In this document: in pieces, positions 13,693-50,161 of the stretch
How positions within the stretch are numbered: position 1 is the first letter of the stretch
How the letters are laid out: each line of letters opens with the position of its first letter
Virus record (IMG/VR): IMGVR_UViG_3300044451_000174
Span: 74,722-125,807 of that record
Reading direction: 5' to 3' (one strand)
DNA from: a virus
Length of the DNA stretch: 51,086 nt
Notes under the pieces: model-generated
What the model saw: only the letters and a program-made list of their open reading frames with translations
Databases searched by the model: none
What the model was told of the DNA's origin: nothing
Made by a program: the position numbers and the translations under genes

Positions 13693-13733
13693 AGTTAGTA
13701 CGAATGACGTTTTGGAGATTTCAGGAGAAACCA

Positions 13734-33462: not shown

Positions 33463-34935
33463 ATGAACGCAAACGCAAAGTTCCTGAACGAAGCGCGGGA
33501 GTTGGAATCTCGTTGGGGTCGCACTGGACTTCTCAATGGCATCGAGGACAGGTACGTCCGCTCTGCCACGGCAGTATTGCTTGAGAACCAAAGACTCATG
33601 AACGAGGTTTCGACCGACACCTCAGACATCGCTCAGTTCAAGAGAATCTCGATTCCGCTGGTACGCAGAATCTACCCGCAACTGATTGCCAACAAGATCG
33701 TGTCCGTGCAGCCGCTGCTCGGCCCGACTGGTCTGGTGTACTACCTCCGCTTCCGCTACTCGTCCAACAAGGGCGCGATCCGTGGTGCGGACAACAACGG
33801 CGGCTTCCCCGGCGACGACGCCAACTCGCTGATGCAGCGGGCTGACGGTACGGCGAACCTCGACATATTTTTCACTCACCAGTTCGTTCAGAACGAGTCT
33901 ACCTCGACTGACGCCGGTGCGGTGACAACTGCGACCTACGCCCCGCTGGAACACACCCCGGTCCTCGCAGGCACCATGACGGGTACGGTCTACGTCGGCT
34001 CGACCGCCGTTCAGACCTACGTCGTGTCCTCGACTGGCGTGTTCACCTTCACGGCAATCGGCTCGCCGACCGTGTTCGCGAACACCACTGGTGGCACGGC
34101 CACTGGTACTGGCGTGGCTGGTACGACCCTGAACGTCACCACGGGTGAAATGACGGTCGTATTCAACTCCGCTCCTTCGAGCAACCACCTCGTATTGTCA
34201 TACGAGTATAACATGGAGTGCAACCAAGACCTCCCTGAGATCAACTTGGTGATCGAGTCGGAAGAGATCGCGGCGAAGACCCGCAAGCTCAAGGCCGTGT
34301 GGAGCTACGAAGCTCAACAAGACCTCCGCTCGCAGCACAACCTCGACGCGGAAGCGGAACTGACGGCGGTTCTGGCGCAAGAAATCAACCTTGAGATTGA
34401 CCGCGAAGTTCTTACTGACCTTCGTAACAACGCTGGTACAATCGCCGCGTGGGACTTCAACACCGCGCTTGGTGAAACGATCAAGGAAAAGTACGAATCT
34501 CTGTACGTCAAGATCGTTGAGATCTCGGCAGTCATCCACAGGAAAACCCTGCGTGGTGGTGCCAACTGGCTCGTGACCTCGCCAGAAGTGGCGTCGATCT
34601 TCGAGACGGCGACGGCAGGTTTCGCACCGGCACCAAGTGAAACATTCACCTCGTCACTGGGTATCCAGTACGTTGGTACGGTCAACAACCGTTGGCGTTT
34701 GTACAAAGATCCGCTCTTTCCGACGAATCAAATTTTGCTTGGGTACAAGGGAGATTCGTACATGGATTCGGGTTACTTCTACTGTCCATATGTACCCTTG
34801 ACGCAGACCCCGGTCGTGTTGGACCCAGAGAGCTTCTGCCCGCGTAAGGGAATCCTCACACGTTATGGCAAGAAATTGCTCCGCGAAGGCTCAAAGTTCT
34901 ACGGACGTATGAGCATCGCAAACTTCGTGATCTGA
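33463..34935 (+). CDS. Major capsid protein (T4 gp23-like)
   Basis: 490 residues behind ACAGGAG. Family features: SATAVLLENQRLM near residue 40, PLVRRIYPQLIANKIVSVQP and FRYSSNKGAIRGAD, with the HK97-type core after about residue 250 (CNQDLPEINLVIESEEIAAK; RKLKAVWSYEAQQDLRS). A Thr/Val-rich beta insertion (about 165-250) is likely an exposed decoration domain. Near the C-terminus SGYFYCPYVPLTQTPVVLDP recurs in a small protein at 46167-46436. The N-terminus lacks a long T4-type propeptide. The gene is closed by a terminator at 34970-34995. Confidence 0.95.
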   Translation: MNANAKFLNEARELESRWGRTGLLNGIEDRYVRSATAVLLENQRLMNEVSTDTSDIAQFKRISIPLVRRIYPQLIANKIVSVQPLLGPTGLVYYLRFRYSSNKGAIRGADNNGGFPGDDANSLMQRADGTANLDIFFTHQFVQNESTSTDAGAVTTATYAPLEHTPVLAGTMTGTVYVGSTAVQTYVVSSTGVFTFTAIGSPTVFANTTGGTATGTGVAGTTLNVTTGEMTVVFNSAPSSNHLVLSYEYNMECNQDLPEINLVIESEEIAAKTRKLKAVWSYEAQQDLRSQHNLDAEAELTAVLAQEINLEIDREVLTDLRNNAGTIAAWDFNTALGETIKEKYESLYVKIVEISAVIHRKTLRGGANWLVTSPEVASIFETATAGFAPAPSETFTSSLGIQYVGTVNNRWRLYKDPLFPTNQILLGYKGDSYMDSGYFYCPYVPLTQTPVVLDPESFCPRKGILTRYGKKLLREGSKFYGRMSIANFVI

Positions 34936-45077: not shown

Positions 45078-45808
45078 GGCCAGTCGCCCAGAGTGGCCGT
45101 CAGTTCGTCTTGCAACGCGATGTATTCGCGTTTGTCGCGTCCGGGCAAGCACTTGAACCGCTGACCTGTACACAGATCCCTCGAACTCATGAACCCGTGC
45201 CAGACGTATTGGGCGCGAGGCAAGTTCGCGTCCCGCCGATTGTCCACGTCGCGAATGTCGCCGGTCATCAGGGACATCGCCTGAACGCGGTCGAAGAACG
45301 TCTCGTTGTTCTTCCACGAAGCGAGCGTAAGCTTCCCGGTCGCATACTCGGTGGTTTTCACGTCAACGGTCAAGCCGTCCAAGATGAAGTCGCCGTCATC
45401 GTCTTTGACTTTGCGGGCCGCGACGGAGATTTGACTGGTCGGGAAGAGGTTGAACAGTTTGCCGAAAGCGAGTTCCCCCGCAATGCCGTTCTGTTCGATG
45501 AACCGCTCACGTTCAGAACCCGGTGCGCCGTCTTGGATCATGTTCTTGACGCCGGCCGACCGAGCCGCCTGAGTCCGTTTGGGGCCGATGACCATGCACG
45601 AGGCGATCTCGAACCGGGAGAGTTGGATCTTGTAGCCTTTGGCGGGAACGAGAGGGGCAATTTCTTCCGCCCACGGACGGAGGTCGAAAGCCTTGTAGGG
45701 GTAGACACCCCGTTCACGACAGTCCTCCCAATAGTCGGTCAATTCGGCGCGAGAAACGTCGTTGCGGACGGCGTGGCGTTGATCGAGAAGCCAGCTTGAC
45801 AGGTCCAT
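45056..45808 (-). CDS. PD-(D/E)XK nuclease-like protein
   Basis: 250 residues with ACGGAGG upstream. The nuclease pattern appears as NGIAGELAFGKLF (helix Glu), GDFILDGLTVDVKTTEYATG (Asp...D-x-K) followed by TLASWKNNET; this is the core of PD-(D/E)XK restriction-like enzymes. The N-terminal third is helical and of unknown role. It could degrade host DNA or process phage DNA ends. Confidence 0.72.
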   Translation of the reverse strand: MDLSSWLLDQRHAVRNDVSRAELTDYWEDCRERGVYPYKAFDLRPWAEEIAPLVPAKGYKIQLSRFEIASCMVIGPKRTQAARSAGVKNMIQDGAPGSERERFIEQNGIAGELAFGKLFNLFPTSQISVAARKVKDDDGDFILDGLTVDVKTTEYATGKLTLASWKNNETFFDRVQAMSLMTGDIRDVDNRRDANLPRAQYVWHGFMSSRDLCTGQRFKCLPGRDKREYIALQDELTATLGDWPHHASSL

Positions 45809-46124: not shown

Positions 46125-46136
46125 GACAGTATCTAT

Positions 46137-46168
46137 GAAAACAGCACGCATTGCTGCGTGCTGTTTTC
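46137..46168 (-). terminator. Bidirectional-looking terminator
   Basis: GAAAACAGCACGCA followed by loop ttgc and its exact complement: 14-bp stem. The minus-strand stop of 46167-46436 lies inside its first bases, and TTTTC follows. Confidence 0.88.
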
Positions 46169-46436
46169 ACCAGTTCCAATCGTCATCGAGATCGCGGAAC
46201 CGGGGTGGCGGTTCAATAACCACTGCGGGTTCGACCGGCTGTGACGGGCCGGGGTCGAGTACCACAGGGGTTTGAGTCAACGGTACTTGCGGTGCATAGA
46301 AGTAGCCGCAGTCTCGGAGGTCGTCGGCTGTGACGCCTGCAAGAATTCCTTTGAACGCCCCAGAAGACACTGTTTTGCCAGACGCTGTTGCCACGGGATC
46401 TCGCTTTCGCATACGACGATGATCATCGCCGCACAC
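46167..46436 (-). CDS. Small protein with the capsid protein's C-terminal motif
   Basis: Up to 89 residues; starts at GTG 46436 or ATG 46412 are both weak. DCGYFYAPQVPLTQTPVVLD (nt about 46258-46313) nearly equals SGYFYCPYVPLTQTPVVLDP of the major capsid protein, and the preceding ILAGVTADD aligns with ILLGYKGDS. A Pro-rich C-terminus follows (PAVVIEPPPRFRDL), ending in a terminator. It overlaps 46277-46672 by 160 bases in another frame, so either the genes overlap or one frame is shifted. Likely a fragment or relative of capsid/vertex proteins. Confidence 0.6.
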   Translation of the reverse strand: MCGDDHRRMRKRDPVATASGKTVSSGAFKGILAGVTADDLRDCGYFYAPQVPLTQTPVVLDPGPSQPVEPAVVIEPPPRFRDLDDDWNW

Positions 46437-46672
46437 ATTTTAGCGTCCACCACCGAGAGCATGTTGAGGAAGACCCACGGCCAGACCGGGCCGTGAGCAT
46501 CCTTGTCATACTTCGCCATGATGTTCGGGGCGAGGGACAGGCATGTGTAGTAGATGTCTTTTCGAGCGGGCTTGGGGAAAAAGCTCTTTGCGATTTTCTT
46601 CGCGGCGCGATGCAGAACGTCCGAGTGTTCTCGGCGCGACTTCTGCTGCAACCACACGTTGTCGGTGTTCAT
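46277..46672 (-). CDS. Hypothetical protein overlapping the capsid-motif gene
   Basis: 131 residues from MNTDNVWLQQKSRREHSDVL behind AGAGGCAGCA. The first 100 residues look native: helical, with KKIAKSFFPKPARKDIYYTC and a hydrophobic stretch DAKMCAAMIIVVCESEIPWQ. The last 40 (QPTTSETAATSMHRKYR) overlap the other frame. A frameshift joining it to the capsid-motif frame near 46380 is possible. Confidence 0.6.
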   Translation of the reverse strand: MNTDNVWLQQKSRREHSDVLHRAAKKIAKSFFPKPARKDIYYTCLSLAPNIMAKYDKDAHGPVWPWVFLNMLSVVDAKMCAAMIIVVCESEIPWQQRLAKQCLLGRSKEFLQASQPTTSETAATSMHRKYR

Positions 46673-46833
46673 TGCTGCCTCTGTTGTTGAGATCCCGCAA
46701 GAGACGCAGGATCGTACTGTATGTAGTCTAAATCGGCCAGTCGGCCCGTCATGTCGGATGATATTGGAGGAACCCGCCCCCGTCAACGACACTTCAAAGA
46801 AAACATATCCCTTTTTCTGCCTTCATTATACGC

Positions 46834-48542: not shown

Positions 48543-48869
48543 ATGAGCCAACTTGTTGATGCACAGGGTGTACCATTCGACCTTCCGCCCGCACCGATGG
48601 GGGTGGACGGCAAACCGAAGAAGCGGTTCGAGGTGCGGTTAAATCTCGTCGGGGGCGGGCTTCAAAAAGAAGTCTACATCGACGGCGAAAAACTGGACTG
48701 GTCAATCGACATCGCTTCGTTCGTTGACGCCCATAGAATGGGATTGAAGTACAAACTCGAAATACAAAAGAGCATTGCACAACACTTCACCAAATCTGTC
48801 GGAGAAGTCCTCGGCAGATTCGTGAGTATCGCCGAAATCAAAAACGCCATTCAGACCGGGTGGATCTAA
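48543..48869 (+). CDS. Hypothetical protein upstream of the aminotransferase
   Basis: 108 residues after AAGGTAGAGT. Pro-rich start (VPFDLPPAPMG), a beta hairpin (FEVRLNLVGGGLQKEVYIDG) and a helical C-terminus (GEVLGRFVSIAEIKNAI). Its TAA shares a base with the aminotransferase ATG, so both are coupled. No family recognised. Confidence 0.7.
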   Translation: MSQLVDAQGVPFDLPPAPMGVDGKPKKRFEVRLNLVGGGLQKEVYIDGEKLDWSIDIASFVDAHRMGLKYKLEIQKSIAQHFTKSVGEVLGRFVSIAEIKNAIQTGWI

Positions 48870-50161
48870 TGCTCGACCAAATCGCGACCGAAGATGCAGT
48901 TGAAATCATCCGGCGTCACACCATCGGCGACGGATACCCGTTCGTCGTATCGCTCGACAGCCACATGAGCAGGCTCATTGATGAAAAGAACAATGTCTGG
49001 TACATCGACTGCGTTTCGCAATACGCCAGTCAACCTCTCGGCTGGAACCACCCGGCACTGGGGGTGCTTGACAAGGACGCACCCAAACTCATCAAACACA
49101 AAATAGCGAATCCAGACTTCTACACGAAAGAGAAGGCCCGGTTCGTTCGCGACATCGCCGACGTACTGCCGGACTTCAAATACTTCTTCTTCGTAGAGGG
49201 CGGCAGCCTCGCGGTCGAAAACGCACTGAAGGTCGCGTTCGACTGGAAGGCCCAGAAGATCGGTTGCCCGCCGACAATTACTCCAGACTTCGACGTGGTT
49301 CACCTGAAGCACGCATTCCACGGTCGGAGCGGCTACACCCTGTCTTTGACGAACACGACTCCCGACAAAACGATGTGGTTCCCGACGTTCAAGTGGACCC
49401 GCGTCGATCCGCCGGCCGTCAACCTGTACCCGGACCCGGACGAACAGTTGGCTGTCGAGGAACGGGTGCTGAGGGAGATCTGGCACGCGATGACTTCTCG
49501 AACGGTCGCCGCGTTCATCATGGAACCGATCCAGGGTGAAGGCGGCGACAACTACTTCACCCCGCGATTCTTCAAGATGCTGCGAGAGATGTGCGACGAA
49601 CTGGAAGTGTTGCTGATTTTTGACGAGGTGCAAACAGGCGTCGGCATCACCGGAAAGATGTGGGCGTACCAGCACTACGGCGTAGTTCCCGACATCATTT
49701 CGTTCGGCAAGAAGACACAAGTCTGTGGGATTGCGGCCACGGGACGCATCGAAGACGTGAACCACGTCTTCAAGGCGAGTAGCCGGATCAACAGCACTTG
49801 GGGCGGCAACATCGTAGACATGGTGAGGTTCTCGGCGATCAAATACGCCATAGAACAAGAAAACATGCTCGAATCGGTCAACAAGGTTGGAGAACACCTG
49901 CGTTCTCGACTGAAAGAAATGCCGCTGATCAAAAACGTCCGTGGACTGGGACTGATGGTCGCTTTCGATATGGAAGACGCGGCCCAAAGGGACGCGATGC
50001 TCGAAGCAATGGAAAAGAACTACCTGCTCGCTTTGAAGTGCGGCCCGAAGTCGATCCGACTCAGACCGCACCTGACTTTTTCGTTATCGGACGCCAACAC
50101 CGCATGTGAAGCCATCTCAAAGGCGATCACATGTATCCGGCCTTCGGTTTCGGCGGAATGA
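48869..50161 (+). CDS. lat: L-lysine 6-aminotransferase (class III PLP aminotransferase)
   Basis: 430 residues from ATG 48869 (TAATG overlap); a GTG three codons earlier is possible. The class III PLP fold is complete: FVEGGSLAVENALKVAFDWK (108-127), HAFHGRSGYTLSLTNT (148-163), AAFIMEPIQGEGGDN (214-228), IFDEVQTGVG (250-259, Asp252 for PLP) and SFGKKTQVCGI (278-288, Schiff-base Lys281/282), then SRINSTWGGN. FGKKTQVCG and HGRSGYTLSLTNT are hallmarks of lysine 6-transaminase, which moves the epsilon-amino group of lysine to 2-oxoglutarate, giving 2-aminoadipate semialdehyde. Its role in infection is unknown. Confidence 0.9.
   Translation: MLDQIATEDAVEIIRRHTIGDGYPFVVSLDSHMSRLIDEKNNVWYIDCVSQYASQPLGWNHPALGVLDKDAPKLIKHKIANPDFYTKEKARFVRDIADVLPDFKYFFFVEGGSLAVENALKVAFDWKAQKIGCPPTITPDFDVVHLKHAFHGRSGYTLSLTNTTPDKTMWFPTFKWTRVDPPAVNLYPDPDEQLAVEERVLREIWHAMTSRTVAAFIMEPIQGEGGDNYFTPRFFKMLREMCDELEVLLIFDEVQTGVGITGKMWAYQHYGVVPDIISFGKKTQVCGIAATGRIEDVNHVFKASSRINSTWGGNIVDMVRFSAIKYAIEQENMLESVNKVGEHLRSRLKEMPLIKNVRGLGLMVAFDMEDAAQRDAMLEAMEKNYLLALKCGPKSIRLRPHLTFSLSDANTACEAISKAITCIRPSVSAE

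Follow-up and report, generated by a model that had tools for sequence, protein, structure and literature searches.

A small minus-strand gene (ORF B) in the window, the whole 51,086-nucleotide stretch of viral DNA analyzed here, is identified by sequence comparison as a stand-alone gene that is conserved within a clade of huge T4-like phages, encoding a piece of the C-terminal hairpin region of the major capsid protein gp23 followed by a proline-rich linker and a short C-terminal tag. In one relative (G008, a 532-kb record), the tag ends roughly 35 small proteins of different kinds, an arrangement that resembles a tagging system not described before. This bipartite build, together with a tag common to dozens of small proteins of relatives, changes what needs to be explained. 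It is tentatively proposed, with a probability of roughly 0.4 for the reading as a whole, that ORF B is a two-part docking protein in which a gp23 piece is joined to an address tag and such pieces serve as mimic payloads. The window belongs to a 125.8-kb IMG/VR record, and all sequences used are metagenomic.

Build and origin of the small gene

The open reading frame is present on the minus strand as initially annotated (Table 1), and its N-terminal part derives from gp23. Within its own record, the ORF B protein matches the capsid gene over 36 residues (61% identity, E=4.6e-10), and a gp23 profile built from relatives finds it at E=2.4e-9, so that the similarity is judged from these alignments to be beyond chance and the segment to descend from gp23. 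As previously claimed, the core motif GYFYAPQVPLTQTPVVLD aligns without gaps to GYFYCPYVPLTQTPVVLD of the capsid ORF (16 of 18 residues identical); the motif had been placed at 46258-46313, 4-6 bases off its position. That the capsid ORF is a genuine homologue of gp23 is shown by its matches to Pfam (E=2.3e-87) and to the solved T4 gp23 (E about 5e-36). For ORF B, the Pfam Gp23 family (PF07068) gives E=0.013 and 15.3 bits, under the gathering cut-off of 24.4, and covers residues 30-67 only, so the protein as a whole is not assigned to that family. ORF B is like gp23 and gp24 of T4 (PF07068) in that its N-terminal part is homologous to the gp23 C-terminal hairpin region, but it keeps only about 35 residues, not enough to form an HK97 fold by itself, and adds the linker and the tag. 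The initial annotation, which had treated the small protein as a capsid copy, was right for the capsid half and overlooked the other two parts. With 89 aa, ORF B is also not a gp24-type vertex protein, which is a full-length gp23 paralogue of about 400 residues (solved gp24 chains, 415-427).

Table 1. Positions in the window of ORF B, its parts and neighboring features
Feature	Position	Strand	Remarks
ORF B (Family I gene): piece of the gp23 C-terminal hairpin, proline-rich linker and tag	46167..46436	-	89 aa
gp23-like core motif GYFYAPQVPLTQTPVVLD	46254..46307 (about)	-	
Upstream extent of gp23 homology in ORF B (ILAGVTADDLRDC)	to about 46346	-	
Proline-rich linker PGPSQPVEPAVVIEPPP in ORF B	46203..46253	-	
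C-terminal tag RFRDLDDDWNW of ORF B	46170..46202	-	diverged form of [YF]RSIDDxW
ORF A (MNTDNVW...), upstream gene in another frame, overlapping ORF B	46277..46671	-	codon usage
Sigma70-like promoter match TTGACG-17-TATCAT, upstream of ORF A	46758..46786	-	consensus match only
Terminator-like perfect 16-bp hairpin closing ORF B	46135..46170	-	no U-run after
Full-length gp23 major capsid protein, parent of the ORF B piece	33463..34935	+	Pfam and solved T4 gp23

Candidate starts of ORF B are a GTG at 46436, an ATG at 46412, a GTG at 46394 or 46370, or entry from ORF A by a -1 frameshift. The ORF A frame is coding-like in codon usage to about 46365, and the ORF B frame is favored only from about 46364 onward; given this switch, reading through from ORF A into ORF B would need a -1 shift, and otherwise ORF B would have an internal start. 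The hairpin at the other end of the gene, predicted at -26.8 kcal/mol (z=-5.8), overlaps the stop codon; it had been described as a strong terminator, of which the hairpin stands and the U-run is missing. The same sequence was also found in two near-identical IMG/VR contigs (G001, 254 kb, and G002, 31 kb), and searches for close relatives that used ORF B or ORF A by itself as query retrieved only near-identical contigs, the homologues of ORF A included. No match to isolated phages was obtained with blastn. In an AF2 model of the small protein alone, no secondary structure was predicted in the linker or anywhere else (mean pLDDT 58.8); this fits a disordered docking peptide without proving one, the models of both ORF B and gp23 (pLDDT 49.5) being weak and built on shallow alignments. 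ORF B would be a small two-part docking protein, probably disordered as far as such a model can suggest.

Conservation as a separate gene in relatives

Among 36 records reached by a capsid-based search, five (G005, G006, G008, G009 and G017) have the same gp23 segment in a stand-alone ORF; these ORFs are 80-104 aa long, and each lies 4-11 kb downstream of gp23. The proteins were grouped as Family I, defined here by a stand-alone small gene, the gp23 hairpin motif and a C-terminal R-x-x-x-D-x-W tag, and ORF B belongs to it. Across the six lineages aligned, the invariant residues are G44, Y45, F46, P49, P52, T56, P57, V59, R81, D85 and W87, the last three being the R, D and W of the C-termini, which read YRSIDDPWE and variants in the relatives and RFRDLDDDWNW in the window. 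In G009 and G017, gp23 sequence is retained on through RYGKKL; in the other members the similarity stops soon past PVV and is followed by proline-rich linkers. The gene context of ORF B differs from that of the relatives' loci, in which the upstream neighbor is a small gene ending W-x3-R-x-TQY (three relatives) and the downstream neighbor a coiled-coil/winged-helix-like gene (four relatives).

Where ORF B and its own gp23 have the same residue, the codons agree in 7 of 22 cases, as against 51% between the orthologous gp23s of the window and G008, which argues that the protein sequence of ORF B is under selection. The gp23 segment of Family I is accordingly kept by selection on amino acids while its codons are randomised. 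The suggestion that the small protein is a vertex-protein remnant was not supported by these data and was rejected, since it consists of the gp23 hairpin segment only and is a separate gene in six phage lineages with codons randomised and amino acids kept. The same applies to a frameshifted leftover lacking conservation, as separate genes constructed in the same way are present in five further phage records. The two other roles first suggested for it, a decoy and a regulator of capsid assembly, are possible. A duplicated gp23 end that is decaying and unexpressed would fit the overlap of about 160 bases between ORF B and ORF A, which are read in different frames, and the lack of an evident start site for ORF B; conservation in six lineages, the codon pattern and the peptide-level selection described below for the tag in G008 all speak against it, and this explanation is very improbable and already largely contradicted.

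The C-terminal tag and the proteins that carry it

The tag takes the form [YF]RSIDDxW in the Family I relatives and [YFHW]RSID[DE] in tagged proteins (tag peptide KKKYRSIDDPWE). A scan of IMG/VR for YRSIDDPW returned 16 stretches, eight of them within G008, and a scan of 84,980 prokaryote genomes (257 Gb) for YRSIDDPWE returned zero matches. In G008, 30 ORFs have RSIDD in their last 22 residues, compared with 1.0 expected from internal positions (Poisson p about 3e-33). The tag core RSID[DE], taken as the pattern [YFHW]R[STN]ID[DE], was counted in 38 ORFs, in a census read in 20-kb stretches with ORFs crossing stretch boundaries left uncounted; it lies in the coding frame in 38/38 and is C-terminal in 35/38. 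Its codons include all six for Arg, both families for Ser and three for Ile, and the flanks are dissimilar, which rules out a spreading DNA repeat as its origin and indicates that the conserved object is the peptide. Selection on the G008 tag is therefore taken, from codon choice, to act at the peptide level. Between 0 and about 15 residues, of differing kinds, follow the tag, and one copy is N-terminal. T4 late promoters (TATAAATA) were not enriched and did not mark tagged genes. A match to RDFNDLW in G005 and G009 was set aside as unrelated, sitting inside a larger protein.

The window member departs from this pattern. Its tag, FRDLDDDW in place of the RSIDD form, has diverged at S and I, the S-I and the P being lost from RFRDLDDDW, and no other tagged gene was found in the 254-kb relative G001. 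Because of this divergence and the lack of a second tagged gene, the tag may no longer work in the window phage, and conclusions based on G008 may not carry over to it.

The tagged proteins of G008 are small (median about 106 aa), and their genes are often in tandem with overlapping ATGA junctions. Six are pieces of gp23, covering segments 53-105, 257-311, 316-370, 400-443 and 437-463 (a weak match, E about 4e-5) and, with the tag at the N-terminus, 307-420. Another is a piece of a gp21-type head protease (phrog_207, E=2e-15), which shares 38.7% identity with a 232-aa protein that the same phage encodes upstream of gp23; three are like gp32, the single-stranded DNA-binding protein (SSB), one resembles the C-terminal domain of PrkA, and further ones read from sequence as membrane or Zn-ribbon-like proteins. 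Many have no known parent. Near positions 13720, 27564 and 36306 of G008:C1, tagged genes start directly past tRNA-like sequences, predicted to form a probable tRNA cluster.

Capsid pieces also occur untagged, in the public 595-kb record LR756511.1, which has several including a Family I-like one, and in G025, G026 and G030. An untagged family in five records (L201, L123, L203, L205 and L209) consists of small stand-alone proteins that match only the first 54 residues or so of gp23, a propeptide-like N-terminal region. Since gp23 pieces are found untagged, piece and tag are separable, with capsid pieces spread more widely than the tag. In L272, L276 and L277 of LR756511.1, pieces of the gp23 insertion region (profile 129-239) lie in separate proteins, some adjoining Zn-finger-like segments. 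A 337-aa protein in L170 (G016:C1:102306-105563, ORF 1237-2250, + strand) has an N-terminus that reads as a MerR-like helix-turn-helix, joined to a degenerate region of gp23 type (profile 15-104); it gives the impression of a capsid protein converted to a regulatory role. L161 (G001:C1:197102-200470) holds two gp23-like domains in tandem ORFs (profile 302-423 and 328-411), without the hairpin segment of ORF B.

Possible roles of the tag and its payloads

The capsid-targeting sequence (CTS) of T4 is N-terminal, whereas the tag is C-terminal in 35 of 38 cases and unrelated to it in sequence, so that a conserved N-terminal targeting peptide of the T4 kind is not what was found. The closest precedent lies in the internal proteins of T-even phages, diverse proteins that counter defences of the host and have only a CTS in common (PMC3012670). 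The tagged set is like those of T4 (IPI, IPII, IPIII and Alt) in being composed of diverse small proteins of a T4-like phage that have only a short peptide in common, and unlike them in that many payloads are fragments of core proteins which the phage itself encodes and that packaging is here putative. Two of the parent proteins belong to classes that bacteria sense, as capsid protein triggers CapRel (PMC9712102) and gp32 triggers AbpAB and similar systems (PMC10732053). No phage-encoded tagged decoy pieces were found in the open-access PMC text on these systems, and we infer the link between them and the tagged set. A precedent for tagged capsid pieces was likewise not found in the open-access PMC text.

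By analogy, the most likely role of the tag would be docking as an address label, a short peptide that would bind a single shared partner encoded by the phage (the head core, a replication factory or the like), by which diverse small accessory proteins would be gathered at one place. The gp23, gp32 and gp21 pieces would then be mimic payloads that occupy whatever the parent protein binds: as decoys, an immune sensor with which the host detects capsid or SSB, or, as modulators, the parent's own assembly interface. We infer both the address-label step and the mimic-payload step. An address tag with a common partner is the simplest reading because one peptide occurs on many unrelated small proteins and core-protein pieces are among the payloads. 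Counting against it are the diverged and solitary tag of the window, the untagged gp23 pieces, the many parentless tagged proteins, the N-terminal position of the T4 CTS, the presence of CTS-like N-termini on other proteins of the same clade and the several candidate starts of ORF B. The more extensive proposal of a clade-wide and genome-wide tag system, in which tagged mimics would be gathered, perhaps packaged and injected, and would neutralise host sensors of the parent proteins, is unlikely.

Other explanations share some of this evidence. The gp23, gp32 and gp21 pieces could act purely as cytoplasmic immune decoys, mimicking epitopes and occupying host capsid, SSB or protease sensors without activating them, with a tag that only stabilises, tethers or disposes of the complex. 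Bacterial defences are known to be triggered directly by the major capsid protein and by SSBs of the gp32 type, and both are represented among the tagged ORFs of G008 (six gp23 pieces, three gp32-like), but the majority of the tagged set does not derive from known triggers, and this explanation is rather unlikely. A role of the pieces as head-assembly modulators is also unlikely; by binding to gp23, the scaffold or a chaperonin, they would adjust the assembly or the size of capsids, those of the phage itself or of a competitor. Family I is close to gp23, fusions that carry the T4 gp23 N-terminus are guided to GroEL (PMC3012670), and the pieces correspond to whole secondary-structure modules according to a low-confidence gp23 model, including the N-terminal propeptide-like region in five phages; against this, the same tag is carried by gp32-like, Zn-ribbon and membrane proteins without an evident head role. 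A degron, by which short-lived early proteins would be cleared through a phage or host protease, would suit the small size of the tagged proteins and the C-terminal position of the tag, yet the variable residues that follow it, the N-terminal copy and an acidic core rather than an exposed hydrophobic end make this improbable.

A selected short peptide that ends some 35 unrelated small proteins of one phage points to hub or targeting machinery, of which no description was found in open-access PMC text. The tag could be used as a bait peptide for finding the hub, and as a handle for sorting the unknown genes of huge phages by function. Payloads from capsid, SSB and head protease, the first two being known immunity triggers, suggest a form of phage molecular mimicry that can be tested.

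Several proteins of G001 and the window, for example at window position 45808 on the minus strand (MDLSSWLLDQRHA), begin with M-x(1-4)-F-x-x-[WF]-[LIV], a pattern like that of the capsid-targeting N-terminus of T4; such starts are about 3.5 times commoner at Shine-Dalgarno-matched starts in G001, and not in G008. Elsewhere in the window, a 433-aa ORF (48860-50161, + strand) reads from its sequence like a class-III aminotransferase.
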